Assembly: GCA_021647905.1 (NCBI GenBank)
Contig: JAKITW010000013.1
Coordinates: 1 to 46,724, forward strand
DNA: 46,724 nucleotides
From: Desulfobacterales bacterium
GTDB lineage: Bacteria; Desulfobacterota; Desulfobulbia; Desulfobulbales; BM004
Direction: 5' to 3'
Part shown: positions 1-38,813 of the stretch, piece by piece
How the letters are laid out: the number at the start of each line of letters is the position of its first letter
How positions within the stretch are numbered: the stretch's first letter is position 1
Program-made: the position numbers and the translations under genes
The notes under the pieces: generated by a model
The model's database searches: none
What the model was told of the DNA's origin: nothing
The model's input: only the letters and a program-made list of their open reading frames with translations

Positions 1-2472
1 GTCGAAATCCGGCAAGACTTCAAGAAGCAATCCGTCCTCTGCCCATAGAGGCACAGCCACCACTGACGGATTGCCAAGTCGTGTCTGCGCCACAAGCGTG
101 GTATGCAAACCAGGTTCATCCTCATCCGCCTTCTCGAATTGCACATCCTTCCACGATGCGTCATCCGGAAAACCAATGATAGCCTGATTGGCCTGACCCT
201 GTTTGGCAACCTTTTCCCCGTCTCCGTCCATCAAAGCCTTTTCCAGTCTTTCCAAGAGTGAATCGGGTACTTGCACCATCTCTTCGTAGACCGCTTGCAC
301 CAGGGTGTCGATCTCATCCGGCAGGGTTAACTCCTGTTTCTCCTGCAAAAGGCACCAGGTCCGCAAGAGGAGCTCTTCACGATATACCGCCCCCCACCAG
401 AGTGGTTTCCCGAAAGAAGGTGGCTCGTCCCCGACGAGTCCGGCAACCAAGAGTTGAGGCTCTGGTATCGGCCGGAATTCCCTTGTGTGCCTCCACAACC
501 GCCCGGCCCGTTGAAGGACAAGATCGACGGGGGCGAGGTCCGTGGCTATCACATCGAAATCAAGGTCAAGGCTCTGTTCCGCCACCTGGGTGGCGATGAG
601 GATTTTCCGGCCGGACCGTCCCCCATCCTCGCCGAAGGTAGCCAAGGCCAGTTCCTCACGTTTCTGCCGTTGATTGGAAGGGAAACGGGCATGAAAAAGA
701 TAGATTTCTGTCCCGTCAGTTAAGCGTTTCCCGACAGATTGCCCTTGTGCCTTGATTGTCTCACCATTCGGGAAAAGCCTGTACAGCTCCTGAGCACGTT
801 GCACCGTGTTGACCAGGGCCAGCCCCAAGCCGCCATTTGCAAGTTTTTCCTCCAATGCTGAACGTATTGCCGGTAGATCCGACGAGATTCCAAACAGGTT
901 TATTTTCAAACGCCGAGCGGGGTCTGCCTCGAAATGGACCTGATCGACTCTGCCAGAGTGGAACATGGAGAGACGAGGGTACTCCACCTCATGCGCGGGA
1001 AGATCGGTATTGACAACCTCCGCCAATTTGCGCCGGATCGACGGGGGCATGGTCGCGGAGAGCAGCACAATCGATGAGCCCAGCGCCAGCAACCAGCGCA
1101 TCAAGTGAATCAGTAATGTGCCGGTGTAGGCATCGTAGGCATGAATTTCATCGAAAACCACCACCCGATTTGCAAGCCCCCACAAACGGACAAAGTTGTG
1201 CCGAACCGGCAGAATGGGCAACAAAGCCTGGTCCACTGTGCCAACACCATATTCCGACAGGAGCGCCCGCTTCTTGGAAGTGAACCATTCCCCGGCCCGG
1301 ATCTCGCCTCCGGTATCGGGATCGTGGATGCCGGAAAGACGCAGATTCTGAAAGGTGTCATTAAGTAGCGTGGCGCCATGCACCAGTTGCAGATCGAGCT
1401 TCCGGTTGCCTCCCTGGCCGGATAAAAACCTGAGGGTTCGTTTGAACATGGCGTTCCCTGTGGCCTTGGTCGGTAGAGCCACATAGAGCCCTCGATGGCC
1501 GCACTTGCGCTGTAGCTCCAGATGTGCGTAGAAAGCGGCCTCTGTCTTCCCCTCTCCCATGGGTGCCTCCACCAACAGAATGGCAGGCTTTGTCAGTGCT
1601 GCAAGGGCCTCGCTGACCGCTTGCTGCAACGGACGGGGAGAAAAGCTGAAAACTTCCTCGAAGGGCCTGGATTCTTGGGAAAGCTGAGTTCGTGACTCCC
1701 AGCCGATTGCGTTCAATGCCTTTTCCGCCTTAACTCTGCTCTTTCGAAACCAGCCAGGGAGGTCAGGGCAATCATCAGGACAACCGAAGGGAAACCATTC
1801 TTCATTGGAACCAATCCAATCGGCAAAACTCGTAAGTCCCGCCAGCAACATAAATTCAGGCCCGGAAATGGTCGGCTTTGAGGGTAGTACTGAAGGGTTG
1901 AAAACCCCAAGCAAAGCCTCCGCAAGGCCATGACGAGCTTGTGTCCAATCATTCCTTACTTCTTCAAGTCGCTCGCCCCTGCCAACATAAATTTCTAGCG
2001 ACGCCTTATCTTTCGCGTTTTCTGAGGCCCGATTGCCATGATGACAACCAACCGCATCCGCCGCCAGTTCGGCCAAATCTTCCGGCCATTCCCGGTCACG
2101 CAGAATCTCTGCCAAAGCAATCTGACCAACAAATCCGTGTCGGATGACGATATTCGGACTTCGTGGAAGACGCAAACCTGTCTTAGGAAGCAGCTCCGGC
2201 CACTTGGACTGAAACCCCGGACAAGACTTTCCCAGATCATGGCAGGATGCCAGGAACAAGAGCCACGGGCGTGCCTCCCCCCAGCCCATCCCCAATATTG
2301 CCGCCATCATGTCACGTGTCTTCTCTGGTTCACGTGCCAGTATCGCGTCCACACTGGCAGCAACATCTAGCAAGTGAAGGATGAGGGGGTGCCACTCTGA
2401 ATCCCCATTTCTGGACGTCTTTGCCCACAAGTATCCAAATATTTTGTCCAACCCAATCCTCTTGATTTTCAT
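1..2472 (-). CDS. cas3: CRISPR-associated HD-nuclease/helicase Cas3 (C-terminus beyond window)
   Basis: Cas3 is the ssDNA nuclease-translocase of type I CRISPR systems, recruited by Cascade to degrade the non-target strand. The frame is open from an ATG at 2472 to base 1 without a stop (824 codons seen). The HD nuclease half comes first: WHPLILH at residues 27-33, CHDLGK with H78/D79, and CHH at 143-145. The superfamily-2 helicase half follows: Walker A MGEGKT with K309, Walker B DEIH at 441-444, SAT at 472-474, and the motif VI region QRAGRLWRH at 654-662. [14 protein letters not shown] just before it is characteristic of Cas3. The LWAKTS...HPLI N-terminus resembles type I-E Cas3; that subtype is inference. 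The ATG overlaps the TGA of an upstream 41-codon ORF (ATGA), which suggests translational coupling. Any Cascade genes and the array would lie left of base 1; none is visible here. Confidence 0.93.
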
Positions 2473-2594
2473 TCCTTCCCAACCGCTGCCACATCCAGAC
2501 AGTGATAAGGCAGCAAATGATATCGCAACGGTTGGCCTTCCTCGGCTTTTTCCGCCTTGCCCCAATAGTTAAAAAACCGTTCGAACCGTTTCAT
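2469..2594 (-). pseudogene. Remnant of a second cas3: 41-codon ORF with the start of an HD domain
   Basis: A short ORF (ATG at 2594, TGA overlapping the cas3 ATG) encodes [14 protein letters not shown] followed by [17 protein letters not shown]. This matches the N-terminus of E. coli-type Cas3 (YWGK...[13 protein letters not shown] as I recall it), including the first HD-domain histidines. It therefore looks like the first 40 residues of a different Cas3 from the intact gene that follows. Its first codons (MKRFERF) are written by the GTTTRAAC-type repeat DNA upstream. The rest of that second cas3 is absent. Either it is decay after recombination at the shared LDVAA region, or it is a translated leader peptide that couples ribosomes onto cas3. 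I favour a remnant. Confidence 0.65.
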
Positions 2595-2692
2595 TGTTTA
2601 AACCGTTTGTTGAACTAACTGTTTAAGCGTTTAAACCGTTTCAGCCGCTTAAGCGTTCCAGCGTTCAAACCGTTTGAGCGTTTGGGCCGTTA
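2569..2692. repeat. Degenerate GTTTRAAC-type short repeats, left of the S23 gene
   Basis: About 120 bases are built almost entirely of 8-9-mers related to CGTTTAAAC, CCGTTTGAAC and GCGTTCCAGC, in both orientations, many centred on the palindrome GTTTAAAC. The block begins inside the cas3-remnant 5' end and stops at the stop codon of the four-helix-bundle gene. Similar stretches are at 3143-3206 and 20780-20826. Confidence 0.8.
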
Positions 2693-3136
2693 CTTTTTCA
2701 GATACGACTGCAGCATTGCGTCAAATTCTTCCATTTCAGGATCTTTCGGTTTCTTGTATTTCTGGCCCTTAAACTTGCTCCTCTTCAGGTGCTCGATAAA
2801 CTTGTGCAACATGATCGACAGTTTCCGGTGCTGATCTATCAGTATCTCTGCCTTTTCCCGGACGATATATCCCTGGTCCTGGGCCACATAGAGTTGGCAG
2901 CGCACCTCGCCACAGCTCCCCTTGGCAATGGCAAGAAATTGGATGAATTCCTGGTTGCCGCCCCGTTCGTACCCCTCGGCGATGTTGGACATCACAGACA
3001 CCGAGGCACGGCGGATCTGGTCTCTGAGGCCGTAGTCCTTGGCAAAATTCCCCTTGGCGGTCGCGGCATAGATCTGGTTGGTCAACACCCTTGCCAGTTT
3101 CCAGGTTTCCAGGTCTTCGAAGTTTTTCACGATCAT
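2690..3136 (-). CDS. Four-helix-bundle protein of the S23 / 23S rRNA-IVP family
   Basis: A 148-residue protein with the family's hallmarks: a start like [19 protein letters not shown], then [25 protein letters not shown] in the second helix region, and a hydrophobic heptad pattern through [22 protein letters not shown]. The family was named from ORFs in intervening sequences of 23S rRNA genes, but many members sit elsewhere on chromosomes. The molecular role is unknown. The start has GAGGTATAACA upstream. Both flanks are GTTTRAAC-type repeats, so gene plus repeats look like one cassette. The charged C-terminal tail ([15 protein letters not shown]) is longer than in many relatives. Fold assignment is confident; function is not. 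Confidence 0.88.
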
Positions 3137-3142
3137 TGTTAT

Positions 3143-3206
3143 ACCTCGTTTGAGCCGTTCCAGCGTTTAAACAGTTTAAACCGTTGGAACCGTTTGAACG
3201 GTTACT
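3143..3206. repeat. Degenerate GTTTRAAC-type short repeats, right of the S23 gene
   Basis: The same 8-9-mer vocabulary as at 2569-2692 (CGTTTGAGCC, GCGTTTAAACAG, CCGTTTGAACGG) fills the gap between the S23 gene and the truncated ORF6N gene. Confidence 0.8.
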
Positions 3207-3208
3207 TC

Positions 3209-3565
3209 CTAAAACCCGATTTTCCGCTTCGGTTTCTCATCCGTGTCCAGCAACTGCCGGATCGCCTTAAAGACTATCTGGAAGTTCTCGTCGTACTCGG
3301 CGAGTCTGTTTTCCAGGATTTCGAGCCGGTCGGCAAACTCCTTGTGGCCGGCAACCATTTCGCGAAGCTTCACAAAGGCCCGCACCACATAGATACTGAC
3401 CTCGACGGCTCTCTTCGTTTTCAGGATCGACGCGACCATCAAGGCCCCGTGTTCGGTAAATACAAGGGGAGAATATCTTCTTCCACCATGACCGGCAGCA
3501 TCACTTGAGGTCGCAAATTGCGATCTCAAGTTTTGTCGGTCTCGTAACAACCCGAAAGGCTTCAA
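3209..3565 (-). pseudogene. 5'-truncated ORF6N-domain gene (C-terminal part only)
   Basis: Residues NLRSQFATSS, RRYSPLVFTEHGALMVAS and VVRAFVKLREMV, plus the KRKIGF end, match the second half of ORF6N proteins, phage- and plasmid-associated DNA-binding proteins. The N-terminal ORF6N DNA-binding core (usually about 70 residues ahead of this) is missing. At the break, around 3534, the frame runs into a 101-bp inverted-repeat element. A TTG within that element (3565) keeps the frame open and would add MKPFGLLRDRQ. I see no ORF6N N-terminal coding beyond the element at 3636-3755, so this is loss rather than simple insertion. It is probably non-functional, although the coiled-coil C-terminal part (residues 60-105) could still be made. 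Confidence 0.75.
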
Positions 3566-3635
3566 ATGCCACCTAATAACATCAACTACTTACAACATGA
3601 CACACGTCCGTCTCGCAGGTTGTTGCGAGACCGAC
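3535..3635 (-). repeat. 101-bp inverted-repeat element, copy 1 (both ends intact)
   Basis: The ends are near-perfect inverted repeats: GTCGGTCTCGCAACAACC at 3635 (minus) and GTCGGTCTCGTAACAACC at 3535 (plus). Just inside the 3635 end lies GCGAGACGGAC, which can also pair with that end. The middle carries ACGTGTGTCATGTTGTAA and GGTGGCATTTGAAGCC, shared with the copies at 10756, 12028 and 26488. No transposase is present. Confidence 0.85.
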
Positions 3636-3755
3636 AAATGTTATTGGATTGCGGACAGAAGAACAATGCTAGATTATTACCAGGGTTTTGATAGGCAAAA
3701 CCTAGTAGTCGGCCTGATGGTTTACCGGACCGGGGACCAACGGCGGAACAGGTCC

Positions 3756-5222
3756 TCAGCTCCGGGCACCAAGCAGGTCGAGCAGGCGGGCGTGGATATT
3801 ATCAAAGCCGCCGTTGGAGAGGATGGCGATCACGTCGCCCGGTATTGCGCTACGGCGGAGATGGTCAAGAATTTCGTCGGTATCGGCAAAGTAAAGGGCG
3901 TCCCGGCCGCGGCTGGCAAGATCCGCCACCAGTTGTTTGCTGGAAAAGCGTTCCCCGGGCGGCACCTTGTGCAGGGCCGGCGGCTCGCGGACAATGACCA
4001 TATCGCTGTGGTCAAAACAGCCGGCATAACGCCCCTGGAAAACGTTGCGCATCGAGGTGTTGGTGCGGGGCTCAAACACGGCTATCAGCCGCCGCCCCTG
4101 GTATGCCTCGCCTAATGCGGCCAGGGTCTCCCGCACCGCGGTGGGGTGATGGGCAAAATCATCGATCACCGTGATCCCGTCCACCTCGCCGCGCACCTCC
4201 TGCCGCCGTTTGACCCCCTTGAAAGAGGCCAGCCCGGCGGCCGTTGTTTCCGGACCGATGCCGAGCCGGTGCAGCACAGCAATGGCCGCCAGTCCGTTCA
4301 GGCCGTTATGGCGGCCAGGCATCGGGCTTGCAAAATCACCATAGAACTCATCCCGGTATTGGACCCGGAAGGTCGTGCCCCGGGGGGTTACCCGCAACTC
4401 CTCCAGTTGCCAGTCCGCATCCGCTCCCTGGCCGTAGCTCTCCACCCGGCAGCGGGCCTGGGACACGATCTCCCGCACCACCGGATCATCGGCACAGGCG
4501 ATGATGCAGCCGTCCCCGGGCATGATCGCCACCAGCCGTGCAAATGATCTTTTCACCGCCTCCAGATCTTCATAGATATCGGCATGGTCGAACTCGATAC
4601 TGGTGATGATCGCGATCTCGGGCCGGTAATGGAGAAACTTGGGTCCCTTGTCAAAAAAGGCGGTGTCATACTCGTCGCCCTCAAGTACGAAAAAAGGGCT
4701 GTTGCTGGTGTTGAAATTGCGGCCGAACTCCTGGACCAGGCCGCCGATCATGAACCCGGGGGTATTGCCGGCCGCATGGAGCATGACCGCCAGCATGGAG
4801 GAAGTGGTGGTCTTGCCGTGGGTGCCGGCCACCACCAGCGGACGCTTGCCGGCCAGAAAAAAGGTCCGGATCGCCTGGGGAAAGGACAGATAGGGAATCC
4901 CGGCCGCGGCCAGGGCAACGGCCTCGGAATTCTTCCGGGTGACGACATTGCCGACCACCACCAGGTCGGGCCGGGGAACAAGGTTCTCCGGCCCATGGCC
5001 GCTGATCACCGGGATCCCCAGCCGGGCCAGAAAATCGCTCATCGGCGGGTAGACCTGCCGGTCGGAACCGGTGACCTTGTACCCCTGGCCATGGAGCAGA
5101 CCGGCCAATGCGCCCATGCCGGTGCCGCAGATGCCGATCAAGTGGATATGACCGATGGAACCAGGGACCCGGTTCAGGTCGGGAGAAAGTTGCGCGCCTT
5201 GGTCAGCAGCCGGGAGATTCAT
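3756..5222 (-). CDS. mpl: UDP-MurNAc : L-Ala-gamma-D-Glu-meso-DAP ligase (Mpl), peptidoglycan recycling
   Basis: Cytoplasmic Mur-ligase family enzyme that reattaches the recycled tripeptide L-Ala-gamma-D-Glu-meso-DAP to UDP-MurNAc using ATP. The start HIHLIGICGTGMGALAGLL is the nucleotide-binding fold typical of MurC/Mpl. The ATP loop is AGTHGKTTTSS, followed by VLEGDEYDTAFFDKGPKF, which distinguishes Mpl from MurC, then EFDHADIYEDL and the C-terminal FEPRTNTSMRN. I chose the ATG at 5222 (488 aa); an in-frame ATG at 5282 adds 20 Arg/Pro-rich residues with no family match. The E. coli protein is about 457 aa. It sits downstream of a small conserved ORF and tRNA-Ala on the same strand and indicates meso-DAP peptidoglycan. 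Confidence 0.93.
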   Translation of the reverse strand: MNLPAADQGAQLSPDLNRVPGSIGHIHLIGICGTGMGALAGLLHGQGYKVTGSDRQVYPPMSDFLARLGIPVISGHGPENLVPRPDLVVVGNVVTRKNSEAVALAAAGIPYLSFPQAIRTFFLAGKRPLVVAGTHGKTTTSSMLAVMLHAAGNTPGFMIGGLVQEFGRNFNTSNSPFFVLEGDEYDTAFFDKGPKFLHYRPEIAIITSIEFDHADIYEDLEAVKRSFARLVAIMPGDGCIIACADDPVVREIVSQARCRVESYGQGADADWQLEELRVTPRGTTFRVQYRDEFYGDFASPMPGRHNGLNGLAAIAVLHRLGIGPETTAAGLASFKGVKRRQEVRGEVDGITVIDDFAHHPTAVRETLAALGEAYQGRRLIAVFEPRTNTSMRNVFQGRYAGCFDHSDMVIVREPPALHKVPPGERFSSKQLVADLASRGRDALYFADTDEILDHLRRSAIPGDVIAILSNGGFDNIHARLLDLLGARS

Positions 5223-5320
5223 GGGGTTCCGTTGGCAAGGCCTGGGGGAAACGGACCGGACAACCGGCCGCCGCGGCTGCAAGATGCGGCCGCGGCTAGC
5301 CCGCTGAAGAGAAAAACGGG

Positions 5321-5512
5321 CTACGAGCGAACAGTATCGTGGACCGACCGGTAGATGGAGTCAAAGGTCTCGCCAAAGTTGCCCGGCGAAAGACGGCCCA
5401 CCTCAATGAACTTGACCACGATCTCCTTGGCAACCTTGAGAATCGCCTCATCGGATACCGGTTTGATCTGGGAGTCCGGCCCTGGTAAGGGGATGTTTTT
5501 CTTTCCTGTCAT
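5321..5512 (-). CDS. Small conserved protein of unknown function (63 aa)
   Basis: The 63-residue frame from ATG 5512 (MTGKKNIPL) contains DEAILKVAKEIVVKFIEVG then RLSPGNFGETFDSIYRSV, an acidic-start helix and a second helix separated by a Ser-Pro turn. It has the feel of a conserved short protein from Desulfobacterota genomes, but I cannot name a function. A longer upstream frame (to 5629) would cross the terminator hairpin at 5531-5578 and is rejected. It lies 98 bases upstream of mpl in the same direction and directly after the tRNA-Ala terminator, so it probably has its own promoter or depends on read-through. Confidence 0.6.
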   Translation of the reverse strand: MTGKKNIPLPGPDSQIKPVSDEAILKVAKEIVVKFIEVGRLSPGNFGETFDSIYRSVHDTVRS

Positions 5513-5523
5513 GGAGTCACCAT

Positions 5524-5585
5524 AAAAAAAACCTCTGCTGCCGGAAGAAGGCCGTTTCTTTACCAGGACAGCAGAGGTATTTTTC
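5524..5585 (-). terminator. Strong hairpin terminator after tRNA-Ala
   Basis: A perfect 10-bp stem (ACCTCTGCTG at 5531-5540 with CAGCAGAGGT at 5569-5578) is followed on the minus strand by eight T (A-run at 5523-5531 on plus) and on the plus strand by ATTTTT. It is properly placed to end the tRNA-Ala transcript and could act in both directions. Confidence 0.82.
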
Positions 5586-5659
5586 TCATAGGAAAAACCG
5601 ACAAGGCCCTCCCTAAAGAACCGGTTCAAACAGCCTCGGCCGAGGCCATGGAAGTATGG

Positions 5660-5736
<77 letters not shown>

Positions 5737-5893: not shown

Positions 5894-6086
5894 TTCGTCT
5901 TTATTCGGACCTGTTACCCTGCCTGGCGGCACCCCGGGCAAGCGACCGCCGGGGGACTCCGGAAAGGGTGGTTGCCGATGACATGGTTCCAGCAAGTTCG
6001 GGCGGTTCCGGTTCATTTCAGGGGCGCCGCCATTCCTGTCCCCGGGCGGACCGATCTTCAATCTTTTCCTTAACAATTTCTTTTGA

Positions 6087-7148
<1,062 letters not shown>

Positions 7149-7244
7149 CGCACCCCGTGACCCTTACCGCCGCTTTCCGCCCGTCCTCCGCCGCCAGTGC
7201 CGGCCGTCTTCTGCCTGTCACCGGGAGCGCCGGGGGGTGACATC

Positions 7245-8084
7245 ATGAGGAAACAACATGGCAGACAACGCCCCGGACAGTATAAGGTACTGCTTTACGG
7301 GGCCCTGCTCACCCTGATCCTGATCCTGATCATCTCCACCGTGGGAAGACAGGAGTTCGGTTCCTCCCATAAATTCTCCCTGGAACTGATCGGGCCGCTC
7401 CAGTCGATGGTTTCCCGGGCCACTGATTTCAGCCGTGAACTCTGGCAGGACTATTACGCCCTGCTTGACGTCCGTGACGAGAACAAACGACTCCGGACCG
7501 AGTTACAAAAGGCCCAGGAACGGAACAACCAGTACCGGGAGGCCGCCGCGACCAACGAAGGTCTGCGCCGGCTGCTCCACTTCAAGGAATCACTACCCCT
7601 GCCCACCTTGACCGCCCGGATCATCGGCAAGGACCCCTCCCTCTGGTTCCGGACCATCATCGTTGACCGCGGCAGCAAGGACGGGCTGGCAAAGGGAATG
7701 CCCGCGGCCACGGCGGCAGGGATCGTCGGCGAGGTCCTCGGCACCTCGCCCAACTATGCCAAGATCCTCCTGGCCACCGACCCGAACAGCGCCATTGACG
7801 TGCTGCTCCAGCGCGGCCGGACCCGCGGCATTTTAAAGGGCCAGGGCAGCGACCGCTACCGGCTGCACTATGTGATGAAGAACGCGGACGTGGTCAAGGG
7901 CGACCGGGTGGTGACCTCGGAAATGGGCGGGATCTTTCCCCAGGGATTGCTGGTGGGCACGGTTTCCAGGGTGTACCAGGACCAGCGCTCCATGTTTCAG
8001 GAGATCGAGGTCGAGCCGGCCGTTGATTTCAGCCGGCTGGAAAACGTCATTATCATCATGAAAAAAAATTCTCCGGCCCAATAG
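7245..8084 (+). CDS. mreC: Rod-shape protein MreC
   Basis: Bitopic inner-membrane protein whose periplasmic part links MreB/MreD to PBP2 and RodA. A basic N-terminus (MRKQHGRQRPGQYK) is followed by a single membrane helix (LLYGALLTLILILIIS). Next come a coiled coil (DENKRLRTELQKAQERNNQ) and the beta-rich domain with IVDRGSKDGLAKGMP and GDRVVTSEMGGIFPQGL, both typical of MreC. I chose the ATG at 7245 (279 aa) because GGGGGTGA precedes it. A start at 7197 would add 16 residues ahead of this site. Confidence 0.96.
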   Translation: MRKQHGRQRPGQYKVLLYGALLTLILILIISTVGRQEFGSSHKFSLELIGPLQSMVSRATDFSRELWQDYYALLDVRDENKRLRTELQKAQERNNQYREAAATNEGLRRLLHFKESLPLPTLTARIIGKDPSLWFRTIIVDRGSKDGLAKGMPAATAAGIVGEVLGTSPNYAKILLATDPNSAIDVLLQRGRTRGILKGQGSDRYRLHYVMKNADVVKGDRVVTSEMGGIFPQGLLVGTVSRVYQDQRSMFQEIEVEPAVDFSRLENVIIIMKKNSPAQ

Positions 8085-8098
8085 CCATCCACTGACCC

Positions 8099-8641
8099 AT
8101 GTCCGTTCTGGTCTTTCTCCTTATCGGGGTTCTGCTGCTGGTCATCCAGACCTCGCTACTGCCGGTGCTGCCGACCTGGCTGGGGCGGCCGGAGTTCACC
8201 TTTCTGCTCATCGTCTTCATCCCCTCGCGACTGGACCTGGTCCGGGGGGCGGTGGTGGTTTTTTTCATCGGGCTGTTGACGGATATCTTTTCCGGGATAT
8301 TCCTGGGTCTCTATCCCATCACCTATCTGCTGATTTTCTTCACCCTGAAGACACTGTACCGTTATATGGCGATCAATGATTCCCTTTACCGGGCCCCGGT
8401 GGCAGCGGCCGCCTATCTCCTGGGCAGCGGACTGATGTTCGTCGCGGCCACTGTTTTCGGCCCGGGCGGCAGCCCTGAATGGTCCTGGGGGCCGCTTCTG
8501 CTCCAGACGCTGATGATCGCCATCCTGGCCATGCCCTGCTTCACCCTGTTCGACTATTGCTGGCAGCGGACAACGACCAGACCCAAAACCCGCTGGTCCC
8601 TGTTCAACAAAAAGCAGAACCACAACCGGTTCCGCACCTGA
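8099..8641 (+). CDS. mreD: Rod-shape protein MreD
   Basis: Integral membrane protein of the elongasome, 180 aa, with five or six hydrophobic segments, beginning LVFLLIGVLLLVIQTSLLP. The conserved stretch GLLTDIFSGIFLGLYPITYL is present. The C-terminus is short, basic and cytoplasmic (KTRWSLFNKKQNHNRF). It follows mreC by 14 bases and precedes mrdA by 18. Confidence 0.93.
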   Translation: MSVLVFLLIGVLLLVIQTSLLPVLPTWLGRPEFTFLLIVFIPSRLDLVRGAVVVFFIGLLTDIFSGIFLGLYPITYLLIFFTLKTLYRYMAINDSLYRAPVAAAAYLLGSGLMFVAATVFGPGGSPEWSWGPLLLQTLMIAILAMPCFTLFDYCWQRTTTRPKTRWSLFNKKQNHNRFRT

Positions 8642-8659
8642 GCCGAAGCGCAGCAGCCG

Positions 8660-10546
8660 ATGAAGTTCAAGAGAAGGCGGATTGACGCCAGAATATACCG
8701 GGTCGACGAAGAAGAGTTGACCAATCTCAAGCGCCGGACCGATATCGCCGCCATGGTGATCATCAGCCTGCTGGCGCTGATCATTGCCCGGCTCTGGTTC
8801 CTGCAGATTCACAGCGGCCCGCTTTACAAACAACTGGCCGACACCAACCGGGTCCGGGTCCTGGACATCCCCGCTCCCCGGGGCAATATCCTTGACCGCA
8901 ATGAAAAAATCATCGTTACCAACCGCCCCTCTTTCAACCTTGTCTGGAACAAGGAAGACACCCCTGACCCGGAGGCGATGATCCAGCGTCTTTCCCGGAT
9001 CACCGGCGTGGACATCGCTGTCTTTCTCGAACGGATCCGGGCCGCCGCCGATCTGCCCCGCCATATTCCCGTCACCCTTAAGGAGGACATCCCCTGGCAT
9101 ACCCTGGCCGCGGTGGAAAACAACCACCTGGAACTGCCCGGCATCCGGATAGTGGCCCTGCCCATCCGCGACTACCCGCACCAGGACCTTGCCGGCCACC
9201 TGATCGGTTACCTTGCCGAAATCAACCCAAAAGAACTGAAGGAAAAACAATGGGACAACTATGGGCGCGGCGACCAGATCGGCAAGATGGGGATAGAAAA
9301 ACTGTTCGAGGAGTATCTGCGCGGTGAAAAGGGCAGGCAGTACATGGAGGTGAACGCCCAGGGCTTTGAACAGCGCCGCCTCAAGGGGATCGGCGCCCTG
9401 CCCGGCAACGACATCCAGTTGACCATTGATCTTGATCTCCAGGCCGTTGCCGAACAGGCCATGGTCGGCAAGGCCGGGGCAGTGGTGGCCATGGAGGTGG
9501 ACAGCGGCCGGGTTCTGGCCCTGGCCAGTTCACCCACCCTGCCGCTGCATCAATTCCTGGGCGGCATCTCCAGCAAAAACTGGCGGGCACTGCTCAACAA
9601 CCCCCTCCATCCCCTGATCAACAAACCGATCATGGGCCAGTACCCGCCCGGTTCCACCTACAAGATCGTCACTGCCCTGGCCGGGCTCTCCGAGGGGATC
9701 GTCACCCCTGACACCGTGTTCTACTGTTCCGGGTCCCTGGAGTTCGGCAACCGCAGGTACGGCTGCTGGAAAAAAAACGGCCACGGCCCGGTCAATCTCA
9801 ACCGCGCCCTGGTCGAGTCATGCGATGTCTATTTTTACCAGGTCGGCCAACGGCTGGGCGTGGATCTCCTGGCCAGGTATGCCGAGGGCTTCGGCCTGGG
9901 CCGGAAGACCGGGATCAAACTGGAGCATGAAAAAGAAGGCTTGGTCCCCACCACGTCCTGGAAAAAAAGACGCAAAAAGGTGGCCTGGCAAAAGGGTGAG
10001 ACCTTGTCAATTGCCATCGGCCAGGGCTTCAACCTGACCACCCCGCTGCAAATCTGCCGGATGACCGCGGCCGGCGCCAATGGCGGCACCCTCTACCAAC
10101 CGCAGCTGATCGAGCTGATCCAGCGGGCGGACGGAACGGTTGCCAAACAGTTCAGCCCGGTTGCCGAGGGCCGGGTGGCGGGCAATAAACGTTTCCTGGG
10201 CCTGATCGACAAGGCCCTGGTCGGGGCGGTGAACGACAAACACGGCACCGGCCGGGCCGCCAGACTGGAGAAGATTACCGTGGCCGGCAAGACCGGCACC
10301 GCCCAGGTGGTTCGCCTGAGCCGGTACAAGGATGTGGCTGAAGAGGATGTCCCCTATAAATACCGGGACCATGCCTGGTTCACCTGCTTTGCCCCGGCGG
10401 ACAAGCCGGAAATCGCGGTGACCGTGCTGGTGGAACACGGCGGTCATGGCGGTTCGGTTGCCGGCCCCATTGCCAAACAGGTGCTGGCCGAGTATTTTGG
10501 CATAGATCTGGAACCAGCCCCGGACATGGCCGAGGCGACCCATTAG
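8660..10546 (+). CDS. mrdA: Penicillin-binding protein 2, elongation transpeptidase
   Basis: Class B PBP that cross-links lateral-wall peptidoglycan together with the glycosyltransferase RodA. 628 aa. A single N-terminal membrane helix (MVIISLLALIIARLWFL) leads into the pedestal domain with PAPRGNILDRN. The transpeptidase motifs are all present: STYK with catalytic S332 and K335, SCD at 387-389, and KTGTAQ beginning K544. The FTCFAPADKPEIAVTVLVE strand is typical. It is co-directional with mreD and rodA, though rodA is 333 bases away across repeats. Confidence 0.97.
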   Translation: MKFKRRRIDARIYRVDEEELTNLKRRTDIAAMVIISLLALIIARLWFLQIHSGPLYKQLADTNRVRVLDIPAPRGNILDRNEKIIVTNRPSFNLVWNKEDTPDPEAMIQRLSRITGVDIAVFLERIRAAADLPRHIPVTLKEDIPWHTLAAVENNHLELPGIRIVALPIRDYPHQDLAGHLIGYLAEINPKELKEKQWDNYGRGDQIGKMGIEKLFEEYLRGEKGRQYMEVNAQGFEQRRLKGIGALPGNDIQLTIDLDLQAVAEQAMVGKAGAVVAMEVDSGRVLALASSPTLPLHQFLGGISSKNWRALLNNPLHPLINKPIMGQYPPGSTYKIVTALAGLSEGIVTPDTVFYCSGSLEFGNRRYGCWKKNGHGPVNLNRALVESCDVYFYQVGQRLGVDLLARYAEGFGLGRKTGIKLEHEKEGLVPTTSWKKRRKKVAWQKGETLSIAIGQGFNLTTPLQICRMTAAGANGGTLYQPQLIELIQRADGTVAKQFSPVAEGRVAGNKRFLGLIDKALVGAVNDKHGTGRAARLEKITVAGKTGTAQVVRLSRYKDVAEEDVPYKYRDHAWFTCFAPADKPEIAVTVLVEHGGHGGSVAGPIAKQVLAEYFGIDLEPAPDMAEATH

Positions 10547-33336: not shown

Positions 33337-34743
33337 TTGAAAGGAAAGGTACTGATAGCCAACCGCGGCGAGATCGCCCTGCGCATCATGCGGGCCTGCC
33401 AGGAACTGGATCTCGATTATGCGGTGGTTTATACGGCAGCGGACGAGGACTCCCAGCACGTTCGCCTGAATCGTGACGGCAACAGCGATAAAAACAAGGC
33501 CTGGCGGGTTCACAGCTACACCGATCCCAACGATATCCTCGCGGTGGCCGACCATACCAACTGTACGGCCATCCATCCTGGCTACGGGTTCTTTTCCGAG
33601 GATTACCGCTTTGCCCGCCGGGTGACCACCCGCAACCGGCCGCTGACCTTTATCGGACCGACCTGGCAGGTGATCAAGGACCTGGGCGACAAGATCAATA
33701 CCAAGCGGATCGCCAAGCAACTGGATATTCCGATCATCCCGGGGACCGACAGCCCGATCTACAACGAGATGGAGGCTGAGGAGATTGCCGAGCAACTCCT
33801 GGCCGAGCAGAAACATCAGGGTATCCGCAACCCCTCCATCCTGGTAAAAGCGGCGGCCGGCGGCGGCGGAATGGGCATTGAGGAGGTTTCCCAGATCGAG
33901 ACCTTTCGCCGGGTCTACCGCCTGGTACAGAACTATGCCAAGCGGCAGTTCGGCGACGGCGGGGTCCTGATCGAGCAATGTCTGCGGGACTACAACCACC
34001 TGGAAGTACAACTGCTCTGCAGCAAGCATGGCGAACGGCTCCATTTCGGCACCCGGAACTGCACCATCCAGTCCACTGGCCGGCAGAAACGGATCGAGGC
34101 GGCGCCCGGCCTTGACAACGACTGTTTTGCCTACAATTTCGATGCCGCCGCCGTGCTGGATCAGATCGTCCACAATTCGCTGAAACTGGCCTCCCACGTG
34201 CGTTATGACAATGTCGGCACCTGGGAATGGATCGTCACCCGGGAGGGCAGGCCCTACCTGCTGGAGGTCAATACCCGGATCCAGGTGGAAAACGATGTCT
34301 CGGCCCGGATCAGTTATGTGAACGACAAACACCCCAACCTGATCAAGGAACAGATCCGGACCGCCCTGGGCGAACGGGTCGGCTACAGCCAGGAGGACGT
34401 CAAGTTCAGGGGCGCCAGCGTTGAACTGAGAATCGTGGCCGAGGACCCCCAGCGCGGCTTTGCCCCCTGGATCGGCACCATCACCAAATTCGACCTGCCC
34501 GGCTACGACTGGTCAGCGGTCTATACCCATGTTCCCAACGACCGGGCCTACCCGATCCCCAGCGATTTCGACCCCAACCTGGCCCTGGCCATCGTCTGGG
34601 GCGATTCCATCCGCGAAGCCAAGGAACGGGCCAGACGATTCCTCAAGGAGACGACCATTGAAGGCCGTAATGCCGGCGGCGCCCCCATTATGACCAATAT
34701 CTCCTATCTGGACAATAATCTGGACCGTCTGTTGACCTTCTGA
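33337..34743 (+). CDS. Divergent biotin carboxylase of an acyl-CoA carboxylase
   Basis: Carboxylates the biotin carrier using ATP and bicarbonate. 468 aa from TTG 33337, where KGKVLIANRGEIALRIMRAC begins and CGAGGA lies ~10 bases ahead. The frame is open to 33202, but the upstream residues are not family-like. The ATP-grasp fold is clear: AIHPGYGFFSEDYRFA and glycine loop GGGGMGI (175-181, the usual RGM replaced by MGI). RQK is at 249-251 and EVNTRIQVEND at 310-320, keeping E310, N312, R314, Q316 and E318 but with HPV changed to NDV. The carrier-binding SAD and SLQ stretches also differ from AccC. It is the first gene of a four-gene operon; acetyl-CoA carboxylase is the simplest role, but another acyl-CoA is possible. 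Confidence 0.9.
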   Translation: MKGKVLIANRGEIALRIMRACQELDLDYAVVYTAADEDSQHVRLNRDGNSDKNKAWRVHSYTDPNDILAVADHTNCTAIHPGYGFFSEDYRFARRVTTRNRPLTFIGPTWQVIKDLGDKINTKRIAKQLDIPIIPGTDSPIYNEMEAEEIAEQLLAEQKHQGIRNPSILVKAAAGGGGMGIEEVSQIETFRRVYRLVQNYAKRQFGDGGVLIEQCLRDYNHLEVQLLCSKHGERLHFGTRNCTIQSTGRQKRIEAAPGLDNDCFAYNFDAAAVLDQIVHNSLKLASHVRYDNVGTWEWIVTREGRPYLLEVNTRIQVENDVSARISYVNDKHPNLIKEQIRTALGERVGYSQEDVKFRGASVELRIVAEDPQRGFAPWIGTITKFDLPGYDWSAVYTHVPNDRAYPIPSDFDPNLALAIVWGDSIREAKERARRFLKETTIEGRNAGGAPIMTNISYLDNNLDRLLTF

Positions 34744-34764
34744 CGAGAACGGGAATAAGCATAT

Positions 34765-37032
34765 ATGGATGACTTACGCAAACGGCTGCTGAAAAACGAA
34801 GAGCGCCTTACCTGCCTTGTCCGGATCAAGGCCGGCGCTCAGTGGGGCAACATCTCCGGTTTCCAGGAAAAGCTCAAGGTTCTGCAGCATTCCTTTTACG
34901 ACCTGAGCGAGATGCAGCTCGACAGTGAACTGCGCAAGATCGAGGCCGGGATCAATTTTATTGAAAAACGCTGTGAAGAGGGCCTCTCCTCCATGGAAGG
35001 GGTGCGGATCGTGCGCAACCCCCTGCGGTTCACCCTGAAGGACATCCTGGAGAACGTCTACGAGGAGTACACCGAACTGGGCGGCGCCGGAGAGACGAGC
35101 ATCGATCCCGCCATGGTGGCCGCCAAGGCCCAGATCGTCCGGCGGGTCAAGAAAAAGCTGGTCTCCCAGCCGGTGATGGTCATCGGCCAGGAAAAAGGCC
35201 ATGGCGAGGAGTTCCGCAACGGCGGTTCATGCAAGCCCTGGGGCAATGAAAAGGCCCTGCGCTACATGCGGGTGGCCGAGACCGAGGGCATCCCGATCCA
35301 TTTCTACATCTTCACCCCGGGTTCCTTTCCAGTGGAGGACTATCCCGGCGCGGCCCAGCAGATTGCCAGGAACCTCTATGCCATGGCCAAGCTGCGGGTG
35401 CCGATGATCTCGGTGATCTCCGAGGGCGGCTCCGGCGGGGCCGAGGCAGTGGGGCTCAGCGATTTCAGGCTGATGTTTTCCCACGGCTACTACTCGGTGA
35501 TCTCCCCGGAAGGCGCGGCCGCCATCGAGGGCAAGATCAAGGAAGGGTCAAAGGTTCCGCCGGAACTGGTCGAGGCCTGCGCCGAGCGGCTGAAGATCAC
35601 CGCCAGGGAGAACCTGGCCCTGGGTACCATTGATCGGATCATTCAGGAACCGCTCCTGGGCGCCCGGCGGGATGACTTCGTCTTTTTCAAGCAACTCAAA
35701 TCCGAGGTGATCCGGGCCACCGACGAGGTGATCCTCAAGACCAAGAGCTTCCGCTCCTTCCGGGCCTACGAGGTAAAGCTGAAAAAGGCCGAAGAGGCCG
35801 CGGCCGAGGAGCCCCAGATCAACATCTCCTGGGACCTGAACCAGGACGAGATCAAGCGGCTGCTCAGCTTCCGTTCGAAAAAATACCGCCACCTGGCCAT
35901 GGACGCCTTTGGCGGCCAACCAACGCCGTCCCTGGCCCTGTACCGAAAGCTCCGGAACATAGCTGCCCGGACCTATTACGGTTTCCGCTACGATCTGCTC
36001 CGCAACCAGCAGAAACAGGTGGAAAAGGTGATCAAGGATGTGTCCGGCGAGGGCTCGATTCTGCTGGATCGAGTCATTGCCCCGTTCCGCCGGGTCTTTG
36101 ATTTCATCAACCGCGAGCAGGCGGATCGACCGGTGGTGGTGACCAAGCAGCCGGGCGACCGGACAAACGGCGAAGACCCCATTGATCTCGAACTGTGGGA
36201 CACCTATACCAGCCCGCTGGCCAACGAGGACCGGACCGTAACCTGCCCCAATGCCGATAAGCACGGCTGCAAGGACCTCTGGGTGCCGGACCTGTACGGT
36301 GAGTTCGCCGGGGTCTGCGAGAACTGCGGCCACCATTTTCCCCTGGAATATGAATGGTATCTGAAGAATCTTTTTGACCCCGACTCGATCCGTGAGTTCA
36401 ACGCCGAGTACCAGTCGCTGAATCCGCTGGCCTATCCCGGCTTTGACAGTCGGCTCAAGGTGGCCCGGGCCAAGACCGGCCGCAACAGCGCCAATATCAC
36501 CTTCTATGCCCGGGTGATGGAAACCGAGCTGGTGGTCACCATGCTCTACAGCGACTTCAGGAACGGCACCGTGGGCGCGGCCGAGGGCGAAAAGTTCGTC
36601 CGGGCCTGCGAAAAGGCCCGGCTCAAGCGGCGGCCACTGCTGGCCTATGTCCATACCACCGGCGGCATCCGGATCCAGGAGGGCAGCATCGGCGTGGTGC
36701 AGATGCCCAAGTGCACCATGGCGGTGCGGGAGTATATCGATTCCGGCGGCCTCTATATCGTGGTCTATGACAACAACTCCTATGCCGGTCCGGTGGCCAG
36801 CTTCCTCGGCTGCTCGCCCTATCAGTTCGCCATCCGCTCCAGCCGGATCGGCTTTGCCGGCCGCCGGGTCATCCGCGAGACCACTGGCGAGGACATCCCG
36901 CCCGATTACCACCATGCCCGCAACGCCCTCAAACGGGGCCATATCCAGGGCATCTGGGATCGGCGCGAGTTCAGGAAGAACCTGCACCGGGCCCTGCTCA
37001 CCATGGGCGGCCGGGCCCTTTATTACCGGTAA
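34765..37032 (+). CDS. Fused carboxyltransferase, alpha then beta domain
   Basis: Transfers carboxyl from biotin to an acyl-CoA. 755 aa. The N-terminal ~320 residues are AccA-like: VMVIGQEKGHGEEF, ALRYMRVAETEGIPIHFYIF, ISEGGSGGAEAVGLSD and YYSVISPEGAAAI. The C-terminal ~270 are AccD-like, with a zinc ribbon C494-x7-C502-x15-C518-x2-C521 and then TVGAAEGEKFVRACEKA and TTGGIRIQEGSIGVVQMPK. The order alpha-beta is the reverse of the gene order usually met in fused two-part carboxyltransferases, and the first zinc pair is CxxxxxxxC rather than CxxC. An ~80-residue unassigned N-terminal helix region and a ~130-residue linker (~350-480) are extra. It follows the biotin carboxylase by 21 bases. Confidence 0.9.
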   Translation: MDDLRKRLLKNEERLTCLVRIKAGAQWGNISGFQEKLKVLQHSFYDLSEMQLDSELRKIEAGINFIEKRCEEGLSSMEGVRIVRNPLRFTLKDILENVYEEYTELGGAGETSIDPAMVAAKAQIVRRVKKKLVSQPVMVIGQEKGHGEEFRNGGSCKPWGNEKALRYMRVAETEGIPIHFYIFTPGSFPVEDYPGAAQQIARNLYAMAKLRVPMISVISEGGSGGAEAVGLSDFRLMFSHGYYSVISPEGAAAIEGKIKEGSKVPPELVEACAERLKITARENLALGTIDRIIQEPLLGARRDDFVFFKQLKSEVIRATDEVILKTKSFRSFRAYEVKLKKAEEAAAEEPQINISWDLNQDEIKRLLSFRSKKYRHLAMDAFGGQPTPSLALYRKLRNIAARTYYGFRYDLLRNQQKQVEKVIKDVSGEGSILLDRVIAPFRRVFDFINREQADRPVVVTKQPGDRTNGEDPIDLELWDTYTSPLANEDRTVTCPNADKHGCKDLWVPDLYGEFAGVCENCGHHFPLEYEWYLKNLFDPDSIREFNAEYQSLNPLAYPGFDSRLKVARAKTGRNSANITFYARVMETELVVTMLYSDFRNGTVGAAEGEKFVRACEKARLKRRPLLAYVHTTGGIRIQEGSIGVVQMPKCTMAVREYIDSGGLYIVVYDNNSYAGPVASFLGCSPYQFAIRSSRIGFAGRRVIRETTGEDIPPDYHHARNALKRGHIQGIWDRREFRKNLHRALLTMGGRALYYR

Positions 37033-37078
37033 CCGCGGCACCGGGCCGCGGCCCCTTACGCTGATTCAGAAAATGACC

Positions 37079-37726
37079 ATGAACCAAGACATCAACTTTG
37101 ACCAGATCCTTGACAAGTACCGGTCCGACCCCTACGAATATGTGGAGATCATCACCCCGCATACCGGCAAGATCCGTTTCCATGTCGAGAACGGCACCGA
37201 GGTAAAGGCGCCGAGCGGCACCTGGCGGCAGAACCCGGGCACCCTTCTCTACACGATCAACCGGGAGCGCAACCCCAAAAAGATTCACTCCACCACCACC
37301 GGGGTGATTGCCGATGTCCGCGGCGATCTGGAAGGCCATTTTGTCGAGGCCGGGGAAAAGATTCTCACCATCCGTCATCCCCTGAAAAAACGGGAGATCA
37401 TCGAGGCCATCCTGCAGAAGGTTCTCTACCTGTTTCCAGCCCCGGAAAACGCCAAGTACTTCTTTTCCATGGAGGTGCAGTCCCGGATCGACAAAAACGG
37501 AGAACGGGATGTCTTTGTCGAGCCTGGTGACGAGATCATCATCATGTCCCTGATGAAACGGGACACCCCGATCCTCTATTCCGGCGAGCCTGGAATCATT
37601 CATTCCGTCTATTTCCAGCCCGGGGTAAGCGTGAAACAGGGCACGCCCCTGCTCGGCGTCTGCGCCCCGGAAAAGCTGCCCCTGGTCAAGGAAATCATCA
37701 ACCACGTCAAAGCGGAATGGGCGTAA
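37079..37726 (+). CDS. Biotin carrier protein with two barrel-sandwich lobes and an SLMKR motif
   Basis: 215 aa from ATG 37079 (an ATG two codons earlier is equally possible; no clear ribosome site). The C-terminal lobe (~135-215) reads VEPGDEIIIMSLMKRDTPIL, then GIIHSVYFQPGVSVKQGTPLLG. This is the hairpin of a biotinyl domain with K160 at the biotin position, but in SLMKR rather than the usual EAMKM. The N-terminal half (~20-105) has the same style of strands (ITPHTGKIRFHVENGTEVKA, and GVIADVRGDLEGHFVEAGEK) without a modifiable lysine motif, so it looks like a duplicated, unmodified lobe. It lies between the carboxyltransferase and the biotin ligase, which supports the role. Its stop codon lies in an inverted-repeat block. 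Confidence 0.85.
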   Translation: MNQDINFDQILDKYRSDPYEYVEIITPHTGKIRFHVENGTEVKAPSGTWRQNPGTLLYTINRERNPKKIHSTTTGVIADVRGDLEGHFVEAGEKILTIRHPLKKREIIEAILQKVLYLFPAPENAKYFFSMEVQSRIDKNGERDVFVEPGDEIIIMSLMKRDTPILYSGEPGIIHSVYFQPGVSVKQGTPLLGVCAPEKLPLVKEIINHVKAEWA

Positions 37727-37883
37727 GCGCTCACAGGGCACCGAACCTGCTTTGTTATCGGCCTGTCCGCATACCGATGTATAGCGAACAGGCCTCTGCC
37801 TCGCATCTCCGGCACCCTGCAAGCGCTTACCAGGCAGGAGGCGACCCGGAGTCCGGCGGGGCTTACCCTGTGAGTGGTTACGA
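37722..37883. repeat. 160-bp inverted-repeat block between carrier and biotin ligase
   Basis: The ends are imperfect inverted repeats: GTAAGCGCTCACAGGGCA (from ~37724) and TACCCTGTGAGTGGTTAC (~37864-37881). Inside are GGCCTGT...GAACAGGCC (from ~37760) and another GCAAGCGCTTACC. The carrier stop codon is part of the left end. No second copy was seen in the window. Confidence 0.6.
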
Positions 37884-38813
37884 ATGGGCATAACCCCTCC
37901 CCTCACCCCCCGACATATCCACCGGATTATCATTGATGAAGAGCTGCCCGGCCGGCGCCAACAAGTTTCGCCGGCCATTGCCGACCGGATCCTCCGCTAT
38001 GGCGCAATAGTCGGCTGCCGGATCGAACATCACCCCCGGCTGGCCCGGGGCATGGACCGGGCCCGGCAGCTGATCCGGAAATGCGAGGAGCAGGACCGCT
38101 CCTTTATGAGCGGCACTGTAATCCTTGCCGATCAGCTCACCCACGGCCGCGGCCGCTTTGAACGGAAATGGCATGCGCCGCCGGGCGGGGTCTGGCTGAC
38201 CCTGGTCCTGGCCAACACCCTGCTCCCCGAAAGCAGCAGGCTCTATCCCCTGGCCGCCGGGGTGGCAACCTGCGAGTTACTGGTCGGCTACGGCCTGCCG
38301 GCCCGGGTCAAGTGGGTCAACGACGTCCTGGTCAACGGCCGCAAGATCGCCGGCATCCTGGCCGAGACCGTGCATGGCGCCCGGTCCGGCGAGGAATACG
38401 TGCTGATCGGAATCGGGCTCAACGCCAACAACGACCGGTTTCCGGACGAACTCCGGGATACGGCCATATCGATGAAAGACCGGCTGAAAAACACAGTGGA
38501 CATCACCTCCCTGGCCGCCCGGCTGCTGGGCAAACTGGCCTGGAATATCGGCCTGCTCCACCATGCCGAGGCCGAGCGTCTCCATGCTCCGGAGGAAGGA
38601 GATGGTCCCGGCCGGGACCATCCGCTCCTGGTCCGCTGGCAGGAACTCACCGACATGGTCGGCCGCCGGGTTCTTTTCGGCCATGATCTCCGGCAAAAAC
38701 CGTTGTTCGAGGCCCGGGTCCTGGGGATCGACCACCAGGGCGGCCTGCTCCTGGAGTTGGACCAGGGCCACCGGATCACCGAATTTTCCGGTGAAATCCT
38801 CTACCTGGACTGA
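37884..38813 (+). CDS. Biotin-[acyl-CoA carboxylase] ligase
   Basis: Attaches biotin to the carrier lysine through biotinyl-AMP. 309 aa. The biotin/ATP loop is LTHGRGRFERKWHAPPGGVW, with VKWVNDVLVNGRKIAGILAE forming the active site and IGIGLNANND after it. The SH3-like C-terminal part (~245-305) is present. There is no N-terminal winged-helix DNA-binding domain, so it should not be a repressor of biotin genes. The ~75 N-terminal residues are unlike the usual STN region (ARGMDRARQLIRKCEEQDRS instead). Its place in the carboxylase operon suggests a ligase matched to the unusual carrier. Confidence 0.9.
   Translation: MGITPPLTPRHIHRIIIDEELPGRRQQVSPAIADRILRYGAIVGCRIEHHPRLARGMDRARQLIRKCEEQDRSFMSGTVILADQLTHGRGRFERKWHAPPGGVWLTLVLANTLLPESSRLYPLAAGVATCELLVGYGLPARVKWVNDVLVNGRKIAGILAETVHGARSGEEYVLIGIGLNANNDRFPDELRDTAISMKDRLKNTVDITSLAARLLGKLAWNIGLLHHAEAERLHAPEEGDGPGRDHPLLVRWQELTDMVGRRVLFGHDLRQKPLFEARVLGIDHQGGLLLELDQGHRITEFSGEILYLD

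Follow-up and report, generated by a model that had tools for sequence, protein, structure and literature searches.

A divergent four-gene set in a Desulfobacterota bacterium: probable housekeeping acetyl-CoA carboxylase with a companion biotin ligase paralogue

Four divergent genes at one locus

The window analysed here is a stretch of 46,724 nucleotides from a Desulfobacterales bacterium (contig JAKITW010000013.1). On its + strand, at 33337-38813, lie four strongly divergent genes; their products are, in order, a biotin carboxylase (BC), a fused carboxyltransferase (CT), a carrier and a ligase-like protein (Table 1). The set is flanked by minus-strand lnt/CorC-type genes on one side and a recO-type gene on the other, and a promoter and terminator scan of the locus gave no signal above that of shuffled sequences. 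Pfam and NCBIfam recognise all four genes, although the scores of the BC and of each CT half amount to only about 50% of the curated equivalog thresholds. The deviations that a preliminary description of this DNA had named in each of the four proteins are fixed across relatives, and thus none of them can be attributed to a sequencing accident.

Table 1. Position of the four genes and of their distinctive features in the window
Feature	Position	Strand	Remarks
BC subunit	33337..34743	+	468 aa; TTG start at 33337
Fused CT, alpha (AccA-like)-linker-beta (AccD-like)	34765..37032	+	755 aa; ACCA and accD (TIGR00515) matches
Variant zinc site C494-x7-C502-x15-C518-x2-C521, CT beta half	36244..36327	+	four invariant Cys
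Carrier, two biotinyl-type domains	37079..37726	+	215 aa; ATG at 37073 is an alternative start
Hairpin tip R62-E63-R64-N65, N-terminal carrier domain	37262..37273	+	consensus R-[EQ]-x-N; strand-turn-strand 56-62/65-70 in AF2 model
Carrier modification site MSLMKRD	37544..37564	+	putative acceptor Lys160 at 37556-37558; MKR[DE] family-invariant
Divergent biotin protein ligase (BPL) paralogue	37884..38813	+	309 aa; ureido pocket replaced, DNA-binding domain absent
Ligase Arg55, position of E. coli BirA S89	38046..38048	+	R in 84/84 divergent ligases
Ligase Leu85, position of E. coli BirA Q112	38136..38138	+	L/M/V/I in 84/84 divergent ligases
Ligase Lys154, catalytic Lys (E. coli BirA K183)	38343..38345	+	K in 84/84 divergent ligases

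The BC displays the Biotin_carb_N, CPSase_L_D2 and Biotin_carb_C domains of Pfam, and falls far below every NCBIfam BC cut-off (323 vs. 626 bits for accC). We surveyed its residues by aligning 16 family members with 35 other BCs, that is, E. coli AccC (NC_000913) and 34 more. K116, K159, H209, Q233, K238, E276, E288, N290, R292, Q294, V295, E296, R338 and D382 are the same as in E. coli, and the key positions for catalysis with ATP, bicarbonate and biotin match. Since every catalytic and ligand residue that was checked is intact, this BC is divergent, not crippled. A loss of the catalytic Arg R338, suspected from a pairwise view, was rejected upon alignment with E. coli AccC, in which all members have it. 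The two peculiarities singled out in the preliminary description, MGI in the glycine loop and the replacement of HPV by NDV, are real and reflect changes fixed in the family. In the GGGGMGI loop, E. coli R167 is replaced by M in 16/16 members where the 35 others have R or K (one has I), while in NDV the replacement is H297N (16/16), against H in 35/35 others, with P298 changed to D, G or E. The family also exhibits a one-residue insertion together with H236 to R in 14/16 members. In a midpoint-rooted tree, it forms a single clade (100/100 support, stem of 1.75 changes per site) separate from AccC, PYC, PCC/MCC, 2-oxoglutarate and urea carboxylases, an outcome in keeping with the divergent lineage proposed at the outset. 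By sequence, the closest solved structure is the small subunit of a 2-oxoglutarate carboxylase (7kct, 9e-78).

The CT is indeed an alpha-beta fusion, as first described, with an alpha half, a linker and a beta half in that order. The alpha half matches ACCA over residues 30-323 (8e-55) and the beta half accD (TIGR00515) over residues 515-744 (1.6e-47), at 158/319 and 177/357 bits relative to the AccA-type cut-offs and 162/317 bits relative to that of accD. As for the two oxyanion regions, their GGSGG and GG-R-QEG motifs are retained. The zinc pair is genuinely atypical, since 145/148 rows show C-x7-C-x15-C-x2-C, as opposed to C-x2-C-x15-C-x2-C in E. coli AccD.

As for the carrier, Pfam places Biotin_lipoyl at residues 140-185 of the query, and SLMKR does replace EAMKM: the modification motif [SATY][LRF]MKR[DE] occurs in 111/111 rows with letters there. 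The AF2 model, built on 21 sequences, shows the strands of two biotinyl-type barrels, with a weak overall pTM of 0.55 that makes their relative placement tentative; the N-terminal domain is confidently modelled, with pLDDT values of roughly 87-96 over most of residues 21-100. Best Foldseek matches are BCCP domains, and both halves align to biotinyl domains in a small profile comparison, at modest probabilities of 67% and 59%. At the hairpin expected to bear the biotin lysine, the first domain contains no lysine but holds R-[EQ]-x-N, with R and N unchanged in 111/111 rows with letters there. It thus seems to be a pseudo-carrier domain that lacks an acceptor lysine, a trait absent from the preliminary description.

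The probable and only recognisable acetyl-CoA carboxylase of the genome

Acetyl-CoA carboxylase (ACC) is near-universal, and AccABCD is the usual expectation in bacteria. The source genome is a 2.73-Mb draft in 118 contigs, 98% complete, in which the CT family, accD and fused-CT profiles match at this locus only and thus reveal no second AccA, AccD or CT. With no other in the genome, the four-gene set is its only recognisable ACC and hence its standard ACC, not an extra one. An AccAD hidden in the gaps of the draft is possible but unlikely. A search for further BC and birA genes, as the preliminary description had advised, did return one of each: the second BC is part of a PYC-type pair, ~36% identical to the operon BC and accompanied by a PYC/OadA-type subunit bearing EAMKM, and the second BPL, at C12, is canonical.

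Our survey extended over 247 genomes of one phylum (Desulfobacterota). A fused alpha-beta CT is found in 42 of them, representing 16 families, and separate AccA/AccD in 93; none of the 247 has both. Each fused-CT genome has a single match, with the exception of G190 and G230, in which one fusion is apparently split at contig ends, and of G037, which has two full-length fusions (C8:307340-309580 and C1:335409-337661). The divergent carrier is present in 42/42 fused-CT genomes and 4/4 isolates, and in none of 24 canonical genomes or five with neither CT type. In the plasmid collection, no fused CT was found at 80% query coverage. It is because the fused CT replaces AccAD one for one that we identify the enzyme as an ACC, acetyl-CoA itself being its likely substrate. 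The explanation we favor, with a probability of roughly 0.75 for the whole, is that the housekeeping ACC of this Desulfobulbales-like cell, and the only one recognisable in it, is the product of the four genes, that this old lineage stands in place of AccABCD in no fewer than 16 families of Desulfobacterota, and that the ligase most likely acts on the carrier.

That the substrate might instead be propionyl-CoA or another acyl-CoA is improbable. The CT scores far under the curated AccA/AccD cut-offs, and promiscuous acyl-CoA carboxylases occur in Delta-proteobacteria according to Lombard and Moreira (PMC3199775), but the CT is of the AccA/AccD type rather than the PCC type, it takes the place of AccAD one for one, and no other CoA-type carboxyltransferase was seen in the source genome.

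Some genomes of the same order, all from family f2 (G011, G048, G082, G110 and G159), have neither fused CT nor AccA/AccD nor divergent carrier. The best BC of G011 groups with PCC/MCC-type sequences, and malonyl-CoA in this family may come from an acyl-CoA carboxylase of another type.

A ligase paralogue tied to the carrier

The operon ligase scores above cut-off with the BPL family and birA_ligase models, and its AF2 model (pLDDT 90) matches P. horikoshii BPL in Foldseek (2e-23). Both features reported earlier, the missing DNA-binding domain and the altered N terminus, are borne out: the N-terminal winged helix-turn-helix of class II BirA has no Pfam match, the model shows two plain helices there, and in the residue survey the altered N terminus removes biotin-pocket residues. 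Operon-type ligases group together in one clade of 28 tips (100/100 support, stem 0.9), from which BPLs of canonical-ACC genomes are absent. Two BPL genes are present in 35/46 fused-ACC genomes and one BPL in 29/29 others, the divergent copy being found only in fused-ACC genomes. Of the 35 two-BPL genomes, 27 have coordinates that place it no more than about 3 kb from the carrier, and the two occur together at 40/80 further loci. In isolates such as Desulfosediminicola (G247), the carrier-ligase pair adjoins a recO-type gene far from BC-CT, and since the pair persists away from BC-CT, the ligase is tied to the carrier and not to the operon as such. Cultured relatives in which every part is present include Desulfosediminicola flagellatus, Desulfopila aestuarii and Desulfoprunum benzoelyticum. 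At loci L281, L283, L284, L285, L282 and L279, where the ligase is unlinked from the carrier, its neighbours are prfB- and/or MEMO-like genes, and an lnt-type gene is often found in the vicinity.

In SaBPL, four residues form hydrogen bonds with the ureido ring of biotin, and S92, T93 and Q115 are among the ureido-binding set (PMC5039522); contacts in E. coli BirA, including Ser89, Thr90, Gln112 and Arg116, correspond to these (PMC10647483). Across 84 divergent ligases, S89 is replaced by Arg (84/84) and Q112 by Leu, Met, Val or Ile (84/84), Thr90 is variable and Arg116 is often Lys, while R118, R121, W123, K183, G186 and N208, which comprise ATP/phosphate residues and the catalytic Lys, are retained. 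Among the other BPLs, S, T and Q are invariant outside family f40 (41/41), and the f40 proteins have Q112, G115 and R116 in 9/9. These comparisons are based on the alignment and the predicted fold, which agree, since in the AF2 model the Arg occupies the position of the Ser-Thr-Asn motif, at the junction of strand and helix. With ureido residues replaced but adenylation residues and catalytic Lys kept, the divergent ligase is a BPL-fold and probably adenylate-forming protein with a rewritten acyl pocket.

Two families have this ACC without the divergent ligase. In f29, the SLMKRD carrier is kept alongside a single canonical BPL, which groups in the tree with the canonical copies from two-ligase families and so suggests that f29 once had the divergent ligase and then lost it. 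One of its genomes, G026, has an EAMKM pyruvate-carboxylase subunit beside the sole canonical BPL, in addition to its SLMKRD carrier. In f40 (nine genomes), the same ACC is found with one BPL that has a largely canonical pocket and adjoins pyruvate carboxylase in the two genomes examined. The f40 pyruvate carboxylase is itself odd, with a SIMKQ carrier motif and, after the biotinyl domain, a zinc-ribbon-like tail (CPNEACG...CPYCG); it is encoded at L275 (G072), 1859-5689 on the minus strand, and at L194 (G217), 6049-9750, in each case next to the only BPL of the genome. Because both families keep the ACC with a canonical-pocket BPL only, the divergent ligase would not be required for biotinylation, and attaching biotin to the MKR carrier is very probably within the capacity of canonical BPLs. 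Strict ligase-carrier exclusivity, which we also considered, was rejected as unlikely on account of f29 and f40.

This bears on the reading put forward in the preliminary description, a self-contained carboxylase lineage with its own ligase, perhaps orthogonal to the standard biotin proteins of the cell. Taken strictly, the locus would then encode an extra acyl-CoA carboxylase with an exclusive ligase, orthogonal to a standard ACC and BirA. Two ligases and two carrier motifs in one genome are what such a system would look like. However, no standard ACC accompanies it in the source genome or in any of the 42 fused-CT genomes, and in G026 one canonical BPL coexists with both SLMKRD and EAMKM carriers, which makes orthogonality highly improbable. 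It also falls with the very probable biotinylation of the MKR carrier by canonical BPLs. The idea of a co-evolved, self-contained lineage with its own ligase is retained, backed by the BC and ligase clades (both 100/100) and by the carrier linkage.

The divergent ligase is also very unlikely to be the lipoate/octanoate ligase of the cell. While most of the tested divergent-ligase genomes have no LplA/LipB-family gene, and five of these do have GcvH (G025, G189, G014, G002 and G062), GcvH is absent from five other divergent-ligase genomes and from the source genome. The latter has no LplA/LipB-family match either, and nothing in it other than the PYC-type EAMKM domain exceeds the cut-off of PF00364, so a general lipoate-ligase role is unlikely. 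Moreover, G070 has an LplA-family gene together with the divergent ligase, and the ligase family scores as BirA, not as LplA.

Proposed function and comparison with known systems

Our model takes as its basis what was computed, namely gene content, AccA/AccD exclusivity, BC residues, lineage, carrier-ligase linkage and loss of pocket residues. From these we infer that acetyl-CoA is the substrate and that Lys160 carries the biotin, and we assign roles to the pseudo-domain and the ligase. With ATP and bicarbonate, the BC would carboxylate the biotin borne by Lys160 in the C-terminal domain of the carrier, and the fused alpha-beta CT would transfer the carboxyl group to acetyl-CoA, yielding malonyl-CoA for fatty acid synthesis. 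The first carrier domain, with its biotinyl fold but no hairpin lysine, probably has a structural or docking role. The BPL-fold product of the fourth gene, co-inherited with the carrier, most likely acts on it, whether as a biotin ligase whose pocket has been rebuilt or through the attachment or regulation of something else. For basic biotinylation, the canonical BPL very probably suffices.

One serious candidate, which we rate somewhat short of even odds, is that the pocket was rebuilt and the divergent ligase is active on biotin, dedicated to the MKR carrier though not strictly required for it, with the canonical BPL serving pyruvate carboxylase. It is consistent with the carrier linkage and co-inheritance, with the invariant ATP/phosphate residues and catalytic Lys in a BPL fold strongly matched by Foldseek, and with biotin-type carriers being the only plausible targets in the source genome. 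It sits less well with the fate of the four ureido hydrogen-bonding residues of SaBPL (PMC5039522), of which Ser has become Arg, Gln is always aliphatic and Thr is variable, and with f29 and f40 managing without the divergent ligase. Alternatively, and at slightly lower odds, the protein might attach another acyl group to the carrier, or be a carrier-binding regulator or chaperone of the ACC. The ureido pocket lost without exception while adenylation residues are conserved, the canonical pocket of the other BPL in the same cells, and the retention of the carrier in f29 without the ligase would all fit. Against this, a candidate acyl group or regulatory ligand is missing, the BC and CT residues look made for carboxybiotin, and a pure scaffold would hardly be expected to conserve the catalytic Lys. 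The boldest version, in which the ACC lineage captured a BPL-fold enzyme that has abandoned biotin, and now adenylates another acid or senses a ligand so as to modify or regulate the carrier, is less likely than not; if true, malonyl-CoA supply in sulfate reducers and their relatives would be subject to an additional, new level of control.

Whichever role the ligase has, many bacterial families of environmental importance are served by an ACC built in an entirely alternative way. Its companion ligase is a natural case of a normally conserved biotin pocket rewritten with the catalytic residues kept, for which the carrier-keeping families without it offer a clean natural experiment. We found no description in the open-access literature of a fused CT in Desulfobacterota or of a dedicated second BPL with an ACC, and NCBIfam (June 2026) has no equivalog for this alternative build. 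Lombard and Moreira tabulate ACC CT-alpha and CT-beta in delta-proteobacteria without mentioning a fusion, and give one BPL per genome as the rule (PMC3199775).

Among known systems, E. coli-type AccABCD likewise has a separate BC and carrier, AccA/AccD-type CT halves with a zinc site, and the same BC catalytic residues. The differences are the alpha-first CT fusion, the x7 zinc spacing, the two-domain carrier, a BC outside the AccC clade, and the companion ligase. In terms of AccABCD membership, the AccA and AccD halves are recognisable, but scores stay below the equivalog cut-offs and MKR[DE] is found throughout instead of an AMKM carrier. Two-subunit pyruvate and 2-oxoglutarate carboxylases provide the closest solved BC structure (7kct); yet the operon BC forms its own clade, is about 36% identical to the PycA-type BC of the source genome, and works with another type of CT. 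Single-chain acyl-CoA CTs have the beta half before the alpha half. The fused AccD-AccA CTs (e.g. Embleya) and the single-chain PCC-type CTs also unite both halves in one chain, but as beta-alpha, not alpha-beta. PCC, MCC and XCC do not match, since they combine a BC-BCCP fusion with a beta-alpha CT, whereas here the carrier is separate, the CT is alpha-beta and the BC falls outside their groups. Two birA-type genes are reported in one genome of Lactococcus lactis (PMC4861984), hence two BPL homologues as here, but in the present case one of the copies goes with a single ACC lineage and its biotin pocket is altered. Finally, the operon ligase shares with class I BPLs such as P. horikoshii BPL the fold, a GRGR-type loop, the catalytic Lys and the absence of a DNA-binding domain, but differs in that the ureido-binding Ser, Thr and Gln are replaced and in forming its own clade on a 0.9 stem.
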